From positions 1 through 9,950 of the forward strand of contig JAOZUV010000046.1 in the NCBI GenBank assembly GCA_029938505.1: a stretch of 9,950 bases of DNA. Direction: 5' to 3'. Positions 1 to 9,904 of the stretch are shown here, piece after piece. This DNA is from Bacteroidales bacterium (lineage in GTDB: Bacteria; Bacteroidota; Bacteroidia; Bacteroidales; GCA-2711565). The translations under genes and the position numbers were made by a program. The notes beneath the pieces are model-generated. The model made no database searches. It saw only the letters and a program-made list of their open reading frames with translations, and was not told where the DNA came from. Every line of letters starts with the position of its first letter. The first letter of the stretch is position 1.

Positions 1-95
1 CAGCCAGTCCGTCAGATCCACCACCACCAGGCTTTGTAAAAGCAGAACCTCTTCCGTCAAAAGAAGAGGAGCAAAAGAAATCATATAATGGGTAA
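1..95 (+). CDS. 3' end of unidentified proline-rich protein (partial)
   Basis: An open frame entering from the left edge (first full codon at base 3) gives about 30 residues ending in a TAA at 93-95. The tail has a run of four prolines, then GFVKAEPLP, then a charged stretch (SKEEEQKK) and ends SYNG. The next gene starts inside it at 88, so the two overlap by 8 bp, the normal geometry of co-translated genes; the other two forward frames stop at 37-39 and 86-88. The composition suggests a disordered hydrophilic tail. I do not recognise the family. It could be the end of a biosynthetic enzyme or of a short precursor peptide of the same cluster; the window cannot decide. Confidence 0.5.
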   Translation, partial: ASPSDPPPPGFVKAEPLPSKEEEQKKSYNG

Positions 96-1212
96 TATCC
101 CTTTAGTTGCGACGATTTCGGGTCAATGTGCTGTTTGGTTTCAAGAAAGTAATCAGTATGTAATAATGAGTCCAATCGAAGCAGAGGTTTTATTAAAAAT
201 TTATAAAAATGATGAAACTTCTGCCATTAAAAAATTCTACGAAGAAAAAACAGAATATGAGCTGGATGATATTATAATCAGAGTTCAGAGCTTAGTTGAT
301 CAGCAAAAAAAAATAGCAAAATCTGTATCTGATGTTATACAGGGAGATATTGGTGAAACTCCTACGGAATTTTCTCGTAAGAGATTTTATAAAATTAGCA
401 ATAAAATATTTTTTGTAGAGTATGAAACTGCTGAATTAGAATTTCAAATCCACCATAAATTTGCTCATCTAGAAATAGAAAACACAACTTTTATCAGCAA
501 TCATTTTCAAGTGTTTTTAAGTGATGAGATGTATGTACTTAAAGTTGACGATAGAATAATAGGTCAATGGGATGCACAAAATTTGCATTATTTGACAGGT
601 AAATTCTCGATGGAGCTTTTGAATAGTTTTTACGATAAAACAGAAGATGATTGGTTAGCAGTATTGCATGCATCTGTGATTAGTGATGGTGAGAATTGTT
701 TATTGTTTGCTGGCGATTCAGGAAATGGGAAAAGTACTGCTGCAGCAATTTTAATGGCGAATAATTTTCATTTAATTGCGGATGATTTTGTTCCCCTTGA
801 TACTTCTTCTGAAGTAAGGTTTTTCCCAGCGGCATTATCTGTGAAAAGACAAGCTCTGAGTGTATTATCTGAAAAATTTCCCGAACTCAATGATGTTAAA
901 GAAATTTATTTTGAACAATTAAATAAGACGGTGAGATATTTAGCTCCTTCCAATGATTTTAGTCAAGATTCTTATCCCTCAAAGGCAATAATTTTTATTA
1001 AATATAATAAAGATGTTTCTTTTGAATTAAAAAGAATTCGGAATATTGAAGCTTTTCAAGAATTGGTTCCTGATACTTGGATTTCTCAAATATTTGAAAA
1101 TGTTGAGAGATTTATGGAATGGTTTTCAAACATACCCTGTTATCGTTTAGAATATTCAAACAATGATGAAATGCTATTATCCATAAAATCTCTTTTTAAA
1201 GATGAATTATAA
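88..1212 (+). CDS. PqqD-like / HPr kinase-like fusion protein
   Basis: This 374-residue protein appears to have two parts. Residues about 1-80 resemble a PqqD-type peptide-binding domain: a short beta-strand region (QYVIMSPIEAEVLL), then two helices. Residues about 185-370 form an HprK-like kinase domain: LHAS at 193-196, a Walker A loop GDSGNGKST at 209-217, and IADDF at 230-234 as the Walker B/base region. True HPr kinases are bifunctional and carry a separate N-terminal domain, absent here. HprK relatives of this kind occur in RiPP clusters (the paeninodin lasso-peptide kinase, SynChlorMet ScmC), where the partner PqqD protein presents the precursor. A peptide or small-molecule kinase role is therefore inferred. 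The start overlaps the upstream frame by 8 bp and the stop overlaps the next gene by 11 bp. The kinase fold is well supported, the PqqD assignment less so, and the substrate is unknown. Confidence 0.75.
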   Translation: MGNIPLVATISGQCAVWFQESNQYVIMSPIEAEVLLKIYKNDETSAIKKFYEEKTEYELDDIIIRVQSLVDQQKKIAKSVSDVIQGDIGETPTEFSRKRFYKISNKIFFVEYETAELEFQIHHKFAHLEIENTTFISNHFQVFLSDEMYVLKVDDRIIGQWDAQNLHYLTGKFSMELLNSFYDKTEDDWLAVLHASVISDGENCLLFAGDSGNGKSTAAAILMANNFHLIADDFVPLDTSSEVRFFPAALSVKRQALSVLSEKFPELNDVKEIYFEQLNKTVRYLAPSNDFSQDSYPSKAIIFIKYNKDVSFELKRIRNIEAFQELVPDTWISQIFENVERFMEWFSNIPCYRLEYSNNDEMLLSIKSLFKDEL

Positions 1213-2269
1213 GGATACCCTTTTGTTTATTGGTGAAAGTATCACTTTAGATAACTATCCAGAGCGTACACCTAAGATTCGTAAAATTATCAAATCTGAG
1301 GAAGTAGATTGGGAAAGATTTGTTTGGGTAGGTAGTAATCACTTATTACTACCCACCATTTATATGCAATATAAACGTGCCGATTTATTGAAAGAATTGG
1401 ATGCTGAATTACTAGAACATATGCGTCATATTTATCAGTTAAATTTGGAACGTAATGAGGCTATATTACACCAAACTCAAGCAATCATAAAGCTATTAAA
1501 CAAACATCAAATCTATCCGCTGTTTTTAAAAGGTGTTGGGAATTTATTGGACAATCTTTATGTCGATATTGGTGAACGTATGATAGGGGATATTGATTTT
1601 TTATTACCCGAAGATGAAGTTATTCCTGCTGCTGAGATCCTCAAAAAAGATGGATATAAAGAGTTAATAGCTTTCTCAAAAAAGGCTTTAAAATATGCAA
1701 GGCATTACCCAAGATTGATAAAGGATAATGAAATTGCTAGTATAGAAATTCATCATCGGATTGTTAAAACACCCTTTGATAAAAGGCTTAATTTCGACAT
1801 TATCAATGAATCAAAAAAGAAATTAAATTTAGATCATATTGTTTATGTTCTCTCAGATACATACCAGATTATTTTTAATATGATGATTGTTCAAATGAAT
1901 GACAATCAGAAGTTCCGACCCCACATTAATCTTAAGCATAGTTATGATTTACTTTTATTATCTAAACGAAAAGAACCTTTAAAAACCTTAGGTGATTTCA
2001 GGTTTTATTTTCAAAGATTAAATAATTATTTGGCAATGTCTTCAATACTATTAGGAAACTCTAAAAGTCTAGCATTTAAAGAAAACAAGCTTACTGCTTT
2101 TTATATTCAAAAGCAGATGTTCGACATTAGGTATGTGAAATGGGCAAAAATAAAAATGATTTTATTTTACCGATTATATGCTTATTTGAGTCAATTTGTA
2201 CAAGCATTCTATAAAAGCAGTGTACGTTATACCTTGTCAAAGCGTTTGTTCAAACGATTATTCAAGTAG
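1202..2269 (+). CDS. Nucleotidyltransferase family protein (NTP_transf_5 type)
   Basis: This 355-residue protein carries the hallmarks of the NTP_transf_5 branch of minimal nucleotidyltransferases. These are FLKG at 108-111, R126 followed by the metal-binding GDIDFLL at 129-135 (Asp130 and Asp132), and IEIHH at 181-185 with the further acidic/His site. The C-terminal half is helical and ends in a basic tail (SKRLFKRLFK). Members are commonly encoded beside HprK-like kinases and PqqD-like proteins in lasso-peptide, exopolysaccharide and exosortase loci; their substrates are mostly unknown. Here the start lies inside the 3' end of the kinase gene (11-bp overlap), so the two are almost certainly co-translated and probably act in one modification pathway. 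No terminator is evident downstream before the next promoter. Family call is confident; biochemical role is not. Confidence 0.8.
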   Translation: MNYKDTLLFIGESITLDNYPERTPKIRKIIKSEEVDWERFVWVGSNHLLLPTIYMQYKRADLLKELDAELLEHMRHIYQLNLERNEAILHQTQAIIKLLNKHQIYPLFLKGVGNLLDNLYVDIGERMIGDIDFLLPEDEVIPAAEILKKDGYKELIAFSKKALKYARHYPRLIKDNEIASIEIHHRIVKTPFDKRLNFDIINESKKKLNLDHIVYVLSDTYQIIFNMMIVQMNDNQKFRPHINLKHSYDLLLLSKRKEPLKTLGDFRFYFQRLNNYLAMSSILLGNSKSLAFKENKLTAFYIQKQMFDIRYVKWAKIKMILFYRLYAYLSQFVQAFYKSSVRYTLSKRLFKRLFK

Positions 2270-2645: not shown

Positions 2646-2679
2646 TTGAGTTAACTGTGACCATGTTGTTTATAAAAAA

Positions 2680-2709
2680 ATAAAACCCTAATGTTATTTA
2701 GGGTTTTAT
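2680..2709. terminator. Bidirectional hairpin terminator between the DUF6132 gene and gapA
   Basis: A perfect 12-bp inverted repeat: ATAAAACCCTAA at 2680-2691 pairs with TTAGGGTTTTAT at 2698-2709 around a 6-base loop. Read on the - strand the stem is followed by a T-run (complement of the A-run ending at 2680), so it should stop gapA transcripts strongly. On the + strand the following bases are only moderately T-rich, so it is weaker in that direction. Confidence 0.85.
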
Positions 2710-2745
2710 CAAAATTGTTTTTCGAGTATAAACTATAATCAGGAC

Positions 2746-3747
2746 TTATTCAAAATCCATAAATAAGCCGATTAAATCAACTACCCGATTCGAATAGCCC
2801 CATTCATTGTCGTACCAACTCAGTGTTTTAACAATTCGTTTCCCAAGTACTTTAGTGTATTCAGAGTCATAAATACTTGAGTATCCATTGCCCACAATAT
2901 CCAAGGAAACTAATTTTTCATCGGTATATTGTAAAATGTTTTTCATGCTTTTTGATGCAGATGCAATCCTAACGGCTGCATTAATATCTTCAACCGTTAC
3001 ATCTCTTTCCAGTTCTACCACTAAATCAACTACTGAACCATCAGGAACTGGCACTCGACAAGCCAAGCCATCTAATTTCCCTTGTAATTCAGGAATAACT
3101 TTACCCACTGCTGCTGCTGCTCCAGTAGTTGTTGGAATGATATTTTCTGCTGCAGCTCGTCCTCTTCTCCAGTCTTTATGTGGAACATCAGCTAGTCGTT
3201 GATCATTGGTATAGGCATGGGTTGTTGTCATTAAGCCTTCTTTAATTCCAAATGCATCATTTAAAACTTTTGCCATTGGAGCCAAACAATTTGTTGTACA
3301 ACTGGCATTGGAAATAATGCGATGTTCGGGTTTTAATCCATCATCATTTACTCCAATTACAATGGTAAAATCAATTTCATCTTTAGCAGGAACCGTTAAA
3401 ATAACCCGATCTGCACCTGCCTCCAAATGTTGTTCAAGCTCTTTTTTAGTACGAAAAATTCCAGTAGCCTCAATAACTACATCAATTTCAAGCTCTTTCC
3501 ATGGAAGTTCAAGAGGGTTTTTTATGCTCATCATCTTTACTTTTTCATTGGGAGTAATTAAATAATCTCCTTCCAAATGAACATTTTGTCCAAATCCTTG
3601 CATGACAGAGTCATATTTTAATAAATATGCCAGTACTTCGTTGTCAAATAAATCATTGATTGCAATCACTTCAATGTCTTTTCTACTATTTAATATTCTA
3701 AATACAGAACGACCAATTCTTCCAAATCCATTAATAGCTATCCTCAT
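2746..3747 (-). CDS. gapA: Type I glyceraldehyde-3-phosphate dehydrogenase
   Basis: A 333-residue canonical cytosolic GAPDH that oxidatively phosphorylates glyceraldehyde-3-phosphate to 1,3-bisphosphoglycerate with NAD+. All landmarks are present. The N-terminal Rossmann motif is NGFGRIGR (6-13) and Asp32 (INDLFD) points to NAD preference. The catalytic loop is SCTTNC with nucleophile Cys150, and the general base is His177 (THAYT). The S-loop runs to RRGRAAAENIIPTTTGAA, Arg231 binds phosphate, and the C-terminal motif is WYDNEWGYSNR (311-321). Length is normal for the family. The ATG overlaps the stop of the upstream GAPDH-like gene as ATGA and is preceded by a near-perfect Shine-Dalgarno site, so it is translated as the second gene of an operon. 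A strong hairpin terminator lies about 35 bp beyond the stop. Confidence 0.97.
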   Translation of the reverse strand: MRIAINGFGRIGRSVFRILNSRKDIEVIAINDLFDNEVLAYLLKYDSVMQGFGQNVHLEGDYLITPNEKVKMMSIKNPLELPWKELEIDVVIEATGIFRTKKELEQHLEAGADRVILTVPAKDEIDFTIVIGVNDDGLKPEHRIISNASCTTNCLAPMAKVLNDAFGIKEGLMTTTHAYTNDQRLADVPHKDWRRGRAAAENIIPTTTGAAAAVGKVIPELQGKLDGLACRVPVPDGSVVDLVVELERDVTVEDINAAVRIASASKSMKNILQYTDEKLVSLDIVGNGYSSIYDSEYTKVLGKRIVKTLSWYDNEWGYSNRVVDLIGLFMDFE

Positions 3748-4760
3748 TGTGCACCTCCTTTCTTATCAATTTTGTTATACGTCATAATTACATCTACCAC
3801 TCTTGCTGCAACGGCCAGAGAAGTGTGATACCAGGATAAAATTTTAATCATTCGCCCAGGTGATTTCATTACAGATTGTTTATCAAATACAACAGAGTGG
3901 CAGTTTCCAACAACATCAGTAGAAACAATCGGGTCATAAACAACTTCAATAATATTTTTATGTTCTTTTGCCTTTTTTTCCATTAGATCAGTAATCATTT
4001 TAATGCTAACATTTGGATCTTTCAAAATAGTTGTTAAATCGAGCAATGAGCCATGGGGTACTGGAACATTTAATGCAGTTCCTTCAATTCGTCCTGAAAA
4101 TTCAGGAAGAATTTTTTGTATCATTTTTGGTGATGGCGAATCGTTTGGTATAATGTTTTCAGCAGCCGAACGACTCCGACGAAAATCGTCTCCAGCTCTA
4201 TCACGTAAAGGTTGATCAGAAGTGTAAGAATGCACGGTTGTAAGCATGGCATAATCTACACCAAAAGCTTCATCAAATATTTTTAAAATATTGGCTGTGG
4301 CATTGGTTGTTGCCGAGCCAGCAGAAATTAGTTTATCTGAAGGTTTAATAGTATGTTCGTTTACACCCATTATAACAACCCTGTCGATATCATCTTTTGG
4401 TAAATGAGTAATAATCACTCGCTTTGCTCCTGCATCAATATGTTTTTGCATGTGTTTTGCTGACCAGAATTCTGGAATCCCATCAATAACAACATCCACA
4501 TCAAATATATCCCAAGGGATGTCTCCAGGATTTCCACCTTCCATAATACGGGCTTTCCCGTTTTTAGAGACTAAGAAATTCCCTTCTAAACTTACATCAA
4601 TTTTATTTTTTGATTCGGAAACCAATAAATAGTGTAAAATATCTGGTTTTCCAATATCTGCAATTGCGACAATTTCTATTAATTCATTTTCTAAACACAT
4701 GCGATAGATGTGACGTGGAGCTTCTCCAAATCCCATTAATCCAACTCTTATTTTTTTCAT
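3744..4760 (-). CDS. GAPDH-like paralogue lacking catalytic residues (putative pseudoenzyme)
   Basis: A 338-residue protein that aligns with GAPDH almost without gaps, yet the key residues are changed. The Rossmann turn reads GFGEAPR (10-16) instead of GFGRIGR. The catalytic loop is SATTNA (149-154), with Ala150 (codon GCA) for the nucleophilic Cys and Ala154 for the second Cys. Asn231 replaces the phosphate-binding Arg, NDSPSP replaces TTTGAA after ENIIP, and HTSLAVAAR replaces DNEWGYSNR. Conserved parts are the His177 region (TVHSYTSDQ) and the S-loop (FRRSRSAAENIIP), which in GAPDH forms intersubunit contacts. The reading frame is intact and overlaps gapA by 4 bp, so it is not a decayed gene. 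It probably has no GAPDH activity; it may assemble with or regulate the active enzyme, or bind another ligand. AGGAG sits very close to the ATG. Confidence 0.85.
   Translation of the reverse strand: MKKIRVGLMGFGEAPRHIYRMCLENELIEIVAIADIGKPDILHYLLVSESKNKIDVSLEGNFLVSKNGKARIMEGGNPGDIPWDIFDVDVVIDGIPEFWSAKHMQKHIDAGAKRVIITHLPKDDIDRVVIMGVNEHTIKPSDKLISAGSATTNATANILKIFDEAFGVDYAMLTTVHSYTSDQPLRDRAGDDFRRSRSAAENIIPNDSPSPKMIQKILPEFSGRIEGTALNVPVPHGSLLDLTTILKDPNVSIKMITDLMEKKAKEHKNIIEVVYDPIVSTDVVGNCHSVVFDKQSVMKSPGRMIKILSWYHTSLAVAARVVDVIMTYNKIDKKGGAQ
3753..3761 (-). promoter_or_regulatory. Strong Shine-Dalgarno site for gapA
   Basis: On the - strand AAAGGAGGT is followed, six bases after AGGAGG, by the gapA ATG. 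The same bases encode the Lys-Gly-Gly near the C-terminus of the upstream GAPDH-like protein. Most genes in this window lack such a motif, so strong re-initiation at the coupled gapA start is implied. Confidence 0.8.
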
Positions 4761-5267: not shown

Positions 5268-5379
5268 TTTGAGGGAAAGTTTTTAATCGTTGTAATCAAG
5301 TTCCGAATGTGTCAACAACTGAAAACCATTTGCCCTCTTTTTGTTTTTAACGATTAGTTTATCAAAAAAAGTAAGAGAT
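5268..5379 (+). other. Leader (5' UTR) of the carboxyltransferase operon
   Basis: About 112 transcribed but untranslated bases, long compared with other leaders here. Two complementary pairs are visible: GAGGG (5271-5275) with CCCTC (5333-5337), and TAATCGTT (5284-5291) with AACGATTA (5349-5356). They cross rather than nest, so they would form a pseudoknot if both paired. I do not recognise a known riboswitch, and chance complementarity is possible. Confidence 0.35.
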
Positions 5380-6927
5380 ATGCCTTTAAAACAAAAGACA
5401 ATTGATCTTAAAAAGCGGATGCAGGATGCCCTTAAGGGTGGCGGATCAAAAGCTATTGAGAAACAAAAAGCCATAGGAAAACTAACAGCTCGCGAACGTA
5501 TTCTTGCAATTTTAGATCCTAAGACTTTTCATGAATATGATCTTTTTGTGGAACATGCCGCAAAGGATTTCGACATGGATAAAAAATACCTCCCAGGGGA
5601 TGGAGTTGTTACTGGAACAGGTTCCATTATGGGTAAACCAGTTTGTATTTATGCACAGGATTTTACTGTCGCAGGAGGTTCTCTAGGTTGGATGCATGCC
5701 AAAAAAATTACTAAAATCATGGATCATGCCATGAAATTGAAAGTTCCAATCATTGGGATTAACGATTCAGGTGGAGCTCGTATTCAAGAAGGAGTAAATT
5801 CCTTAGCCGGTTATGGTGAAATTTTTTATCGCAATACAAAAGCTTCAGGAATTGTACCTCAAATTTCGGTTATTTTGGGCCCTTGTGCAGGTGGAGCCGT
5901 TTATTCGCCTGCCTTAACTGATTTTGTTTTTGTAGTTGATAATATTTCAAAAATGTTCATCACAGGTCCTGAAGTTATTAAAACTGTATTGGGCGAAGAA
6001 ATTTCAATGGAAGAATTAGGTGGTGCTAGAGTTCATGCTGAAACTACTGGTAATGCTCATTTTTATGCTGAAAGTGAACAAGAATGTTTTGACCAGATCA
6101 AGCAATTGATAAGTTTTATTCCTTGGAATAATAAGCGTAAAGCGATGTCGTTTCCTAAGAAAAATCCAAAAGCTAAAGTATATGACATTGAATCGATCAT
6201 TCCTACAGATCCAAGCACACCTTATGATGTACGTGACGTAATTAGAGCGATTAGTGATGACAGTGAGTTTTTAGAAGTTCAAGAATTATTTGCAGCAAAC
6301 ATAGTGATTGGATATGCTCGTTTACAAGGTGAAACCGTTGCATTTGTAGCTAATCAACCTTTAATTTTGGCTGGTGTATTAGATGTTGATTCATCCGATA
6401 AAGCAGCTCGTTTCATCCGTTATTGCGATGCTTTTAATATCCCAATTGTAACGCTTGTTGACTTGCCAGGATATTTGCCAGGTATTGATCAGGAACATGC
6501 CGGTGTTATTCGCCATGGAGCAAAGGTATTATATGCTTATTCTGAAGCAACGGTTCCCAAAATTACTTTGATTTTACGTAAAGCTTATGGTGGCGGATAT
6601 ATTGCGATGTGTTCACATCATTTAAGAGCTGATTTTGTAATGGCGTGGCCAACAGCCGAAATTGCAGTTATGGGTCCTGAGGGTGCTGCAAATATTATTT
6701 TCCGCAAGGAGATTGCCAATGCAGAAAATCCAGATGAGATGCGGAAACAAAAAGTTGATGAATACCGTACTAAATTTGCAAATCCTTATGTAGCTGCCGC
6801 TTATGGTTATATAGATGCTGTGATTGAACCATTTGAAACACGCAAAAAATTGATTCATGCTCTCGAAATTTCAGCCAATAAAACAGAAGAACCTTTGGAT
6901 AAAAAGCATGGAGTACCCCCATTTTAA
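5380..6927 (+). CDS. Acyl-CoA carboxyltransferase (methylmalonyl-CoA decarboxylase alpha / propionyl-CoA carboxylase beta type)
   Basis: A 515-residue biotin-dependent carboxyltransferase, which moves a carboxyl group between biotin and an acyl-CoA such as propionyl-/methylmalonyl-CoA. Two crotonase-fold halves are visible. The N half has GGSLGWMHAKK (99-109), DSGGARIQEGV (129-139) and the oxyanion-hole segment GPCAGGAVYSPA (167-178). The C half has DLPGYLPGIDQEH (361-373), KAYGGGYIAM (401-410) and PTAEIAVMGPEGAANIIF (424-441). Ile408 sits where Streptomyces PccB has its specificity Asp, and YIAM is what I recall for MmdA-type decarboxylases. The frame stays open upstream to a TTG at 5341, but ATG 5380 gives the usual MPLKQK-like start and length. 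The biotin carrier follows 12 bp later. Decarboxylase versus carboxylase cannot be settled because neither a biotin carboxylase nor a membrane beta subunit gene is in the window. Confidence 0.93.
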   Translation: MPLKQKTIDLKKRMQDALKGGGSKAIEKQKAIGKLTARERILAILDPKTFHEYDLFVEHAAKDFDMDKKYLPGDGVVTGTGSIMGKPVCIYAQDFTVAGGSLGWMHAKKITKIMDHAMKLKVPIIGINDSGGARIQEGVNSLAGYGEIFYRNTKASGIVPQISVILGPCAGGAVYSPALTDFVFVVDNISKMFITGPEVIKTVLGEEISMEELGGARVHAETTGNAHFYAESEQECFDQIKQLISFIPWNNKRKAMSFPKKNPKAKVYDIESIIPTDPSTPYDVRDVIRAISDDSEFLEVQELFAANIVIGYARLQGETVAFVANQPLILAGVLDVDSSDKAARFIRYCDAFNIPIVTLVDLPGYLPGIDQEHAGVIRHGAKVLYAYSEATVPKITLILRKAYGGGYIAMCSHHLRADFVMAWPTAEIAVMGPEGAANIIFRKEIANAENPDEMRKQKVDEYRTKFANPYVAAAYGYIDAVIEPFETRKKLIHALEISANKTEEPLDKKHGVPPF

Positions 6928-6939: not shown

Positions 6940-7284
6940 ATGAAAGAGAAGAAAGAAAAAAAAGCGAGGAAGCTTGCTGTTAAGTACGATTCGCTGACAG
7001 TTGAGGGCGTTAAATATAAAACGTTTTTAACCAAGAAATACAAAGACAGAAAACCGTATCAGGAAGTTAATTTCCGTGTGGTAAAAGCATTTATCTCAGG
7101 TGGAATTTGCGATATTTTTGTAAAAGTAGGATCATCTGTAAGAGCTGGAGACCCCTTACTGATTTTGGAAGCTATGAAAATGAAAAACATTATTCTAGCA
7201 CCTCAAGAGGGGGTTGTCAAAAGTATAGATGTAGAGACTGGTGCTAAGGTTATTAAAGGCGACTTATTAGTCGAGTTGGAATAG
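6940..7284 (+). CDS. Biotin carboxyl carrier protein / biotin-lipoyl domain subunit
   Basis: A 114-residue carrier subunit. A lysine-rich N-terminus (MKEKKEKKARK) and a linker of about 35 residues precede a biotinyl domain at about 45-114. The biotinylation motif EAMKM lies at 77-81 with Lys80 as the modified residue. The flanking hairpins carry SGGICDIFVKVGSSVRAGDPL and GAKVIKGDLLVEL, typical of the barrel-sandwich hybrid fold. It should carry carboxybiotin to or from the carboxyltransferase encoded 12 bp upstream. Similar short carriers serve as the gamma subunit of methylmalonyl-CoA decarboxylase and as BCCP of acyl-CoA carboxylases. The last 18 bp overlap the 3' end of the convergent engB gene. 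Confidence 0.92.
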   Translation: MKEKKEKKARKLAVKYDSLTVEGVKYKTFLTKKYKDRKPYQEVNFRVVKAFISGGICDIFVKVGSSVRAGDPLLILEAMKMKNIILAPQEGVVKSIDVETGAKVIKGDLLVELE

Positions 7285-7877: not shown

Positions 7878-8804
7878 TTATTTCTTATAGGAAGAAATAT
7901 GACGAATTTGTTTGTTCTCGTGGATGTCTAGATTTGTGACAATAATTCCCGTTTCTTCAACATCTCCAAAATGCTCATTAACAGCTGTTCCAAACACCTT
8001 CATAGTCGATGTTAAGTTCATATACGTATTGAATAATGGAGGAATATTTTCTCCTTGGGATCTTATTTTTTGTGTAAGTATTTTATAATCCTCATCATAG
8101 CTACTCCCAGTTAATATTGAGTCTAGCATATCCGTATCTAATGTGAGTAGCAATGGATTACGCGGTTTAAGTAAGTTGTCAGGATCTGGAAAATATTTGT
8201 GCATAAAACGCATCAATAATTCTTTTGATAAAGTATCAAAATGTGGATACATTGTAATTTTTCCAAACAAATATTTAACATCCGGATTGTCAAAAATAAT
8301 GGCTCCCAAACCATCCCAAATATTATCTAAAGCATACATTCCTTTTCTAATATTTTTACTTGGTTGGTATTCAGGTTGAACAAATGAACGACCCAGCTCA
8401 ATGGTTATCGGTAAGTATTCTTTAATAAACTTTTCAGTAAAACTAAACAAACGTGAGGTTGGAGAGTGTACTTCGTCTTTCGAAATAATTTTTAAGTCTT
8501 CGCAACGTATAAATCGGTAACCCCCAATGATCTCTTTTTCTATAGGATTCCACACAATCATTTGTTTGAAAGGTTTTTCAGCAGTATCATAACTGTCAAT
8601 ATCAACAGATTTACCAGTTCCTCCTTTAGCATCTCTAAAAGAAAGCTCTCTTAAACGGCCAACTTCTTGCATCAAATTTGGAGAATCATGATGAGAAAAA
8701 ATATAGATTTTATTGTTTCCATAATTGGTGTCACGAACAAAAATCTCATCTGTTAGTTCTTGTTCTAGTAAGTTTCTGTCAACCGGTTCTATAATCGTTT
8801 CCAT
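7878..8804 (-). CDS. glsB: GlsB-like N-acyltransferase (hemolysin-family GNAT)
   Basis: A 308-residue member of the OlsB-like/'hemolysin' acyltransferase family with a GNAT fold. Visible landmarks are VGRLRELSFRDAKGGTGKSVDIDSYD (48-73, in two adjacent blocks), IVWNPIEKEIIGGYRF (83-98), and ELGRSFVQPEYQ (136-147), the diagnostic acyl-carrier/CoA-binding segment. IWDGLGAIIFDNPDVKYLFG (162-181) follows. In Bacteroides thetaiotaomicron the neighbouring pair glsB (BT3459) and glsA (BT3458) makes glycine lipids: GlsB N-acylates glycine with a 3-hydroxy fatty acid and GlsA adds the second acyl chain. The acyltransferase gene 22 bp upstream fits GlsA, so GlsB is the best call. An ornithine-lipid OlsB role cannot be excluded from sequence alone. 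Probably membrane-associated; no Shine-Dalgarno motif is evident. Confidence 0.82.
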   Translation of the reverse strand: METIIEPVDRNLLEQELTDEIFVRDTNYGNNKIYIFSHHDSPNLMQEVGRLRELSFRDAKGGTGKSVDIDSYDTAEKPFKQMIVWNPIEKEIIGGYRFIRCEDLKIISKDEVHSPTSRLFSFTEKFIKEYLPITIELGRSFVQPEYQPSKNIRKGMYALDNIWDGLGAIIFDNPDVKYLFGKITMYPHFDTLSKELLMRFMHKYFPDPDNLLKPRNPLLLTLDTDMLDSILTGSSYDEDYKILTQKIRSQGENIPPLFNTYMNLTSTMKVFGTAVNEHFGDVEETGIIVTNLDIHENKQIRHISSYKK

Positions 8805-8826: not shown

Positions 8827-9678
8827 TTAGTAATTAAAAATCGCATCCGGATTTTTTTCTAATAAATAAACGTGTTCTTTTACTTTTTCGGCCCATTTTG
8901 CATAAGTCATTCGCTTGTCAAAAGTCTGGTAAGCTATAGGTTTGCCGAATGTAATATGGATGGTTTTTCCTTGCTGTTTATACATTTCATTAACGAGATA
9001 AAGCATCTCGAAATTATTTTTTATGCCTAGCTTTTCACGCAAATTGGCAATATTGTAAAAAAAGTTTGAATTTCTACCATCCATATGGGTGGGAATAATA
9101 TCTCTTTTGTGTTGTTTAGCTTTTGAAATAAAAGTTTTTTTCCATTCGAGATCTGAAATAACACCCTTACGTTTACGAGAGACTAATCCCGCTGGGAAGA
9201 AGAGCATTAAAGCATCAGAGGCGAAATTTTCATTGAATACTTTTACATTATCAGCATTGCTTCCGTGTTTATTAATCGGAATAAACATTTCTTCTGCACT
9301 CGGAAGGTTCATTAGGATGTCATTAGCTGGTATTTTAATATCAGGACGTACTTCAGATGTAGTTTTCATTAATGCTAATCCATCTAAGCCACCAAATGGA
9401 TGATTGGATGCAACAACAGATCTTCCTTTCACTGGAATATTTTCCTGTCCTCTTGCTTTGATGGTTGTGCCAAATTCTTCCAATATATTTTGCACATGTT
9501 CTAATCCAGAATTTCCCTTATTGCGGAGGATAAATGCATTTAATTCTTCTTCGTGAATAATACGCCTAAGGTATTGAATAACAAATCCGGGGAGGATGTT
9601 TAAAAGCGTTGAACTCTTTTTCTGGATTACCTCACGGATGTCGATAAACTTCTCGTATTTTATATCTGAATTTTCCAT
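8827..9678 (-). CDS. glsA: GlsA-like O-acyltransferase (PlsC/LPLAT superfamily)
   Basis: A 283-residue acyltransferase, numbered from the chosen start. The catalytic motif is SNHPFGGLDG, with His93 and Asp99 in the His-x5-Asp spacing seen in OlsA-like enzymes. Further landmarks are the block MFIPINKHGSNA, FFPAGLVSRKRKG (from 160, the equivalent of the substrate-binding EGTRS loop), and DIIPTHMDGRNSNFFY. With the downstream GlsB-like gene it should convert N-acylglycine to the diacylated glycine lipid of the membrane. The frame extends 24 codons upstream to 9750, but I chose ATG 9678 (MENSDIKYEK). A -7 box lies at 9714-9721, inside the extension, and the extra residues look like translated promoter sequence. 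Paralogy with other 1-acylglycerol-3-phosphate acyltransferases is the alternative call. Confidence 0.82.
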   Translation of the reverse strand: MENSDIKYEKFIDIREVIQKKSSTLLNILPGFVIQYLRRIIHEEELNAFILRNKGNSGLEHVQNILEEFGTTIKARGQENIPVKGRSVVASNHPFGGLDGLALMKTTSEVRPDIKIPANDILMNLPSAEEMFIPINKHGSNADNVKVFNENFASDALMLFFPAGLVSRKRKGVISDLEWKKTFISKAKQHKRDIIPTHMDGRNSNFFYNIANLREKLGIKNNFEMLYLVNEMYKQQGKTIHITFGKPIAYQTFDKRMTYAKWAEKVKEHVYLLEKNPDAIFNY

Positions 9679-9713
9679 TAATCTTTTCGAGTTATTAGCG
9701 CAAACTAAGATAA

Positions 9714-9721
9714 CAAAGTTA
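9714..9721 (-). promoter_or_regulatory. -7 box of the glsA-glsB-engB operon promoter
   Basis: On the - strand this reads TAACTTTG, identical to the -7 box of the carboxyltransferase promoter. Transcription would start near 9707, giving a leader of about 29 bases before ATG 9678. The nearest upstream TTG (complement of 9748-9750) is 26 bp away, too far for a normal -33, so only the -7 element is well supported. Confidence 0.55.
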
Positions 9722-9904
9722 GTGCTTAAAACGTAAAAATTTTCTTTCAAATTAATATTTTTTTGAATCTGTATGTCTATTTATAAGGCTTTATTTAATA
9801 AAGCAGAGCCAATGTTTATAAGTCTCTAAAAAACAATTCTGTAAATCTTATCGCTAAAATAATTTTAAAAAAAGATTAACAAAATGAAACTTTTTATTAA
9901 CAAT

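Follow-up and report, generated by a model that had tools for sequence, protein, structure and literature searches.

Background

GAPDH is the textbook homotetramer, with well-studied cooperativity among identical subunits. Two GAPDH paralogues are combined in the plant plastid enzyme, which the excerpt of one paper describes as an A2B2 heterotetramer of GapA and GapB (PMC11025378) and in which, according to the excerpt of another, GapB carries a C-terminal extension (PMC3728087). The paralogue described here, for which we use the label GapX, differs from the plastid subunits in lacking the catalytic Cys, and has no comparable tail at its length of 338 aa. Plastid GapB is catalytic, and both subunits of A2B2 are active. 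In other enzyme families, trypanosome deoxyhypusine synthase is activated about 3000-fold on joining a dead paralogue (DHSp) in a 2:2 heterotetramer, and AdoMetDC is activated by a dead paralogue known as the prozyme, as excerpts of the respective papers state (PMC3663545, PMC5201418). The arrangement that we propose for GapX, a dead paralogue in a hetero-oligomer with the active enzyme, is that of these trypanosomatid prozymes, although the enzyme families are different. Trypanosomatid prozymes are eukaryotic and are not known to have operon coupling. Like a prozyme, GapX is a paralogue of an active enzyme, is without some of the catalytic residues and is kept by selection.

Two further partners of GAPDH, CP12 and SR1P, are small proteins unrelated to it. 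CP12 is described as a regulator of GAPDH (PMC3728087), and SR1P of B. subtilis as a small protein partner that regulates it (PMC8152036), both in excerpts of the cited papers. A dead, operon-bound GAPDH partner had no description among the open-licence PubMed Central matches listed. Dead paralogous subunits and the plastid A2B2 enzyme are already known.

Organization of the locus and assignment of GapX

The window, by which we mean the whole stretch of 9,950 nucleotides from a Bacteroidales bacterium, contains gapX followed by gapA on the minus strand (Table 1). Their products share 37% identity across 331 columns. An initial annotation, made from the sequence alone, had described a full-length gapX frame overlapping gapA by four bases, with Ala substituted for the catalytic Cys and Asn for Arg231, and with the TTTGAA and NEWGYS motifs lost, and all of this proved correct: window GapX has GSATTNA where GapA has ASCTTNC, NDSPSP for TTTGAA and HTSLAVA for DNEWGYS. 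Terminator consensus matches number 2 in the stretch, against 1.5 expected in shuffles. A scan that covered sites of the sigma-70-like type only gave none directly 5' of gapX on the minus strand, and the count of such sites across the scan was not above that in shuffles. The biotin carboxylase domain family had no match among the ten window proteins scanned.

Table 1. Features of the window, with positions counted from its first nucleotide
Feature	Position	Strand	Remarks
HprK-related kinase-like protein	88..1212	+	match below cut-offs
Uncharacterised nucleotidyltransferase	1202..2269	+	PF14907; overlaps the HprK-related gene
Terminator-like stem-loop and T run, 3' of gapA	2679..2710	-	consensus match
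gapA, canonical type I GAPDH, 333 aa	2746..3747	-	Cys150/His177/Arg231 kept; TIGR01534 439 bits
gapX, non-catalytic GAPDH paralogue, 338 aa	3744..4760	-	intact ORF; domain matches
ATGA start/stop overlap of gapX and gapA	3744..3747	-	4 bp
Strong gapA Shine-Dalgarno AAGGAGGTG in last GapX codons	3752..3760	-	
GapX codon 231, AAT (Asn), replacing phosphate-binding Arg	4068..4070	-	
GapX S-loop, residues 179-204	4149..4226	-	lowest variability among GapX regions compared
GapX codon 150, GCA (Ala), replacing catalytic Cys	4311..4313	-	
GapX codon 13 (GapA position 10), GAA (Glu), former GxGRxG NAD turn	4722..4724	-	
Carboxyltransferase	5341..6927	+	top NCBIfam match mmdA, below cut-off
Biotin carrier protein	6940..7284	+	3' of the carboxyltransferase
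GlsB, glycine lipid synthesis	7878..8804	-	NCBIfam equivalog, 455.7 bits, above cut-off
GlsA, glycine lipid synthesis	8827..9750	-	equivalog, 349.4 bits, above cut-off; adjoins GlsB

GapX passes the cut-offs of both GAPDH Pfam domains (PF00044/PF02800; 138.2 bits for a cut-off of 24.4 and 47.5 bits for one of 31.7), and it stays under the equivalog cut-offs of type I GAPDH (TIGR01534; 246.7 against 367.2, the neighbouring GapA scoring 439) and of the erythrose-4-phosphate dehydrogenase Epd (TIGR01532; 194.9 against 530.55). The separation is also seen in a profile search of Neomarinimicrobiota, where GapX proteins score at least 376.7 bits and canonical GAPDHs at most 356.1. In contrast to type I GAPDH, GapX has no Cys150, has Asn for Arg231 and has lost the Thr208-Gly209 phosphate loop, whereas the catalytic-base His177 is retained. 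Several named protein matches (e.g. P0021, P0035 and P0083) annotate the dead paralogue as GAPDH, so that counting GAPDH genes in such genomes can give a misleading figure.

Pairing with gapA and translation signals

We scored pairing in 131 distinct paralogue proteins of at least 120 aa, 130 of which had at least 150 bp downstream; L073, whose locus is cut by a contig end, was left out of the count. In all 130 cases gapA lies directly 3' of gapX on the same strand, 129 of these being found automatically and one (L013) by reading, since this apparent exception has a gapA start in a piece below the ORF length limit. Of 125 pairs, 102 overlap by precisely 4 bp and the other 23 do not. Ahead of gapA, inside or at the coding end of GapX, 84 of the 125 pairs have a Shine-Dalgarno core of six bases or longer, as against 4 of the 113 gapX starts that could be placed and 2 of 13 starts of unpaired GAPDH genes. 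A Gly near the C-terminus of GapX is invariant in 42 close relatives, which may partly be due to this DNA signal for gapA.

A third gene accompanies the pair in at most 22 of 124 loci, counted as gene clusters over flanks of unequal length. Most of the widest flanking clusters belong to a single lineage each. Two that extend beyond one lineage, both named by reading the sequence without a database search, are LepA-like (22 loci, one of them in Neomarinimicrobiota) and sigma-factor-like (17 loci). Flanks found only in Neomarinimicrobiota loci are a TrmB-like regulator (14), a GH57 4-alpha-glucanotransferase-like gene (13) and a phosphorylase-like gene (10), each cluster being named from one representative. 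In one Neomarinimicrobiota group the pair lies between the TrmB-like sugar regulator and alpha-glucan genes, a setting that fits a role in sugar breakdown.

Residue conservation across the GapX family

Conservation was read in three sets: a locus set of 128 distinct paralogues of at least 300 aa, which includes extra loci and the second-branch members L082 and L083; a close-kin set of the best 120 protein matches, that is the window protein and 119 others that are 62-91% identical; and a second-branch set of 120 relatives among the matches listed in a search started from the outlier L082, a few of which are named Acidobacteriota or Candidatus Polarisedimenticolia. Position 150 is Cys in 127 of 127 paired GapAs, all of which also keep His177 and Arg231, and in 30 of 30 unpaired GAPDHs, versus none of the 128 locus GapXs (68 Ala, 59 Ser, 1 Thr). 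Nor is there a Cys at this position among the 120 close kin listed (101 Ala, 19 Ser) or the 120 second-branch proteins listed (48 Thr, 35 Ala, 34 Ser, 3 Gly). Residue 231 is Asn in 127 locus paralogues and His in one (n=128), and in the second branch both Asn231 and His177 are present in 120 of the 120 proteins listed. His177, Asp182, Gln183, Arg197, Ser198 and Pro205 are each found in 128 of 128 locus paralogues, and the adenosine-ribose Asp/Glu at position 32 in 127 of 128. The conservation of the substitutions in relatives, a point raised by the initial annotation, is therefore what we observe, and because Cys150 and Arg231 have been lost in relatives too, chance is excluded for these motif changes.

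The remodelled NAD turn is a different matter. It is real in the window, where GFGEAPR replaces GFGRIGR, but it does not extend to the whole family: the NAD core R10/G12/D32/N314 is kept in 37 of the 128 locus paralogues and in 107 of the 120 second-branch proteins listed, as compared with none of the 120 close kin listed. Among the sampled sequences, loss of Cys150 and Arg231 is universal, and erosion of the NAD site is a trait of some lineages only.

Activity regained through a nearby Cys seems unlikely in the branch of the window, because residues 145-156 hold a Cys in 3 of the 120 close-kin proteins listed; this is less excluded in the second branch. There, Cys147, three residues before the lost catalytic Cys, occurs in 98 of the 120 proteins listed. 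The second branch may be a distinct functional subgroup.

Distribution among genomes

From a genome scan that confirmed 203 relatives we retained the best 80, which are labelled Bacteroidota (two being Chlorobiota), Neomarinimicrobiota, Gammaproteobacteria (Cellvibrionales, Haliea and Exilibacterium) and, in a single case, Deltaproteobacteria, a record placed in Myxococcota at the tree stage. In profile searches, GapX was present in 97 of 199 Neomarinimicrobiota genomes (a draw that includes its centre genome), in 3 of 274 genomes of Gammaproteobacteria, the class of Exilibacterium (again including the centre), and in 1 of 395 Bacteroidota sampled, that one being the centre genome of the draw; at most five candidates were scored per Bacteroidota genome, so that a rare miss is possible. 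Within the family of the Bacteroidota centre 5 of 6 genomes have GapX, and the sixth carries a fragment where a contig ends. The pair is conserved in the sense that gapA follows gapX wherever this could be scored, in several phyla, but it is atypical for Bacteroidota as a whole, despite the Bacteroidota records in the scan.

We also took a census of genes for the GAPDH C-terminal domain PF02800 in 32 genomes (from 32 of the 80 loci), among them 12 Neomarinimicrobiota and 17 Bacteroidota. In 10 of the 12 Neomarinimicrobiota, genomes of unstated completeness, the pair are the only genes above the PF02800 cut-off; each of the other two genomes has an extra PF02800 fragment, at a contig end. The 17 Bacteroidota genomes checked have additional GAPDH genes, and so the pair does not account for all GAPDH there. 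Paired Bacteroidota genomes have a further type I GAPDH, mostly together with a longer GAPDH whose open frame runs to about 490-530 codons; L170, L172 and L173 are GAPDHs of this additional kind. Two Neomarinimicrobiota assemblies, G722 (L120, L146) and G730 (L144, L145), have two different gapX-gapA pairs each, which may be true duplicates or may reflect mixed bins.

Selection and joint evolution of the pair

Median dN/dS is 0.055 for GapX (29 computable pairs, range 0.03-0.15) and 0.048 for gapA (30 computable), as estimated by the Nei-Gojobori method from 36 disjoint close pairs, many with dS above 1, so that the values are rough; window GapX had no DNA relative close enough and lies outside this test. 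On these values, purifying selection on GapX is strong and near that on gapA, a point that the initial annotation had raised. Confinement to one strain under relaxed selection, which it had set against its own proposal, is contradicted by the many genomes, the several phyla and the low omega.

For phylogeny we used 135 sequences (56 GapXs, their 56 GapAs and 23 unpaired GAPDHs) and a quick tree method with SH-aLRT support, without bootstrap and with midpoint rooting. The unpaired controls, mostly from Bacteroidota, were collected by HMM search; L167, 76 bases from a contig start, was dropped because its partner may be lost, reducing the set from 31 to 30, L171 (a cut gene) was kept outside it, and the tree omitted 8 of 31 as near-copies or doubtful. 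GapX, paired GapA and unpaired GAPDH are each set apart from the rest by a branch (SH-aLRT 100, 97 and 90, respectively), and the inner orders of GapX and paired GapA correspond when compared by eye. In both, L082 from the gammaproteobacterial draw is outermost, followed by the same 12 sequences from the Neomarinimicrobiota draw, and the same 7 gammaproteobacterial/Myxococcota records and 17 Bacteroidota rows nest among Neomarinimicrobiota. Pairwise distances of GapX and GapA are correlated (0.785 over 1540 comparisons, which are non-independent), those of GapX being about 1.6 times those of GapA. This pattern in the trees fits a joint transfer of the pair between phyla.

Subunit interfaces and the S-loop

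Interface ranges were taken from the excerpt of a paper on the structure of group B Streptococcus GAPDH (PMC5119734) and shifted to GapA numbering; according to the same excerpt, the R interface includes the loop 181-206 as well as N-terminal-domain residues that contact NAD. Mean column entropy in GapX is 0.71 for the R-interface loop (179-204), 1.45 for the P strands, 1.48 for Q, 1.35 for the NAD site, 1.26 for the catalytic and phosphate positions and 1.76 elsewhere, so that P- and Q-interface columns are somewhat less variable than the rest. The corresponding values for paired GapA are 0.19, 0.89, 0.89, 0.29, 0.13 and 1.24. The Q-interface loop of GapX has a 3-residue gap in more than 80% of 81 paralogues, and position 193 is variable (72 Phe, 34 Leu, 15 Tyr and others, n=128).

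The S-loop of paired GapA is itself distinctive. Window gapA has Ala186, Val188 and Trp193, residues present in 127, 127 and 117 of 127 paired GapAs, respectively, versus 0, 1 and 0 of 30 unpaired GAPDHs; since paired GapA forms one tree group, this signature possibly reflects descent and not fit to a partner. In plastid GAPDH, Ser188 of the S-loop touches the coenzyme of the R-axis partner subunit, as the excerpt of PMC3728087 states. Of 127 paired GapAs, 125 have Val-Pro as the dipeptide matching this site; in GapX it is mostly Thr, Lys, Ser, Ala or Arg followed by Ala or Val (Arg-Ala in the window). If GapX and GapA are R-axis partners, GapX would line the coenzyme pocket of GapA.

AlphaFold modelled GapX with a mean pLDDT of 88.5 and with the S-loop (180-202) under 50. 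We rejected the low confidence of this loop as a sign of a missing partner, as a paired-GapA control with an alignment of equal depth (28 rows) gave the same at 180-198. Covariation between GapX and GapA, computed from 125 pairs (about 49 effective), was dominated by clade structure, its highest-ranking column pairs being those that split large clades.

What is the role of GapX?

The explanation that we favor, with some confidence, is that GapX is a conserved non-catalytic, prozyme-like subunit that forms a hetero-oligomer with GapA. Both proteins would probably be made from one message by coupled translation and would then co-assemble, probably as a GapA2-GapX2 tetramer, where both the contact and the 2:2 ratio are what we infer from the pairing and the sequences. 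GapX retains the S-loop that forms the tetramer; without Cys150 it cannot form the thioacyl intermediate, and its Arg231 phosphate site is gone as well. As a structural or allosteric subunit, it could complete or tune the coenzyme pockets and the activity of GapA across the R interface. The initial annotation, which had suggested a non-catalytic partner or regulator, perhaps within a heterotetramer, or a binder of a new ligand, is supported in part. The absence of the catalytic Cys from every relative read, inheritance together with gapA, strong purifying selection and the frame overlap have strong support; association of the proteins, a heterotetramer, a constant ratio of the two and ligand binding are suggestions. 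A point against the hetero-oligomer is that operon partners need not bind each other.

One may also consider that GapX is an independent sensor or regulator, for instance one that binds a nucleotide or metabolite and controls expression or another enzyme. It would then be a homotetramer by itself, with co-expression as its only tie to GapA. The near-invariance of His177, Asp182, Gln183 and Asn231 in the pocket suggests a ligand site, and the adenosine-ribose residue at position 32 points the same way, but the unbroken pairing with gapA and the corresponding trees are stricter than expected of a free regulator, and the S-loop of the paired GapA differs as well. We regard this reading as rather unlikely. 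Less probable still is a new enzymatic activity that uses other residues, such as His177, Asp182 or, in the second branch, Cys147. A rebuilt pocket that is strictly conserved would suit an enzyme, as would the frequent NAD core and Cys147 of the second-branch proteins listed; however, the NAD core is incomplete in 91 of 128 locus paralogues, and position 150 varies among Ala, Ser, Thr and Gly, which leaves no shared nucleophile there. That GapX is mainly a translational device, bringing ribosomes to gapA through its own translation, or an assembly chaperone that assists the folding of GapA, and is absent from the mature enzyme, seems improbable to a high degree: it would agree with a strong Shine-Dalgarno signal for gapA and a weak one for gapX, but translation alone leaves the near-invariant residues across the whole of GapX without an explanation. 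Finally, a decaying duplicate or an assembly artefact, which the missing catalytic residues of the window copy might suggest, can hardly be reconciled with the low omega in all 29 computable pairs and with open frames in independent assemblies from several phyla.

Returning to the prozyme-like subunit, a bolder form of it, which we put forward tentatively, would be that in several phyla GAPDH is an obligate hetero-oligomer, in which the S-loop of GapX reaches across the R axis and alters the coenzyme affinity or selectivity of GapA, or relays an effector, and that the pair has moved between phyla as a unit. If true, there would be a widespread natural GAPDH with half of its subunits dead, and hence a new mode of regulation of glycolysis, as well as a natural system in which to dissect the part of each subunit in coenzyme binding and cooperativity. 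The finding bears on the carbon metabolism of the largely uncultivated Neomarinimicrobiota.
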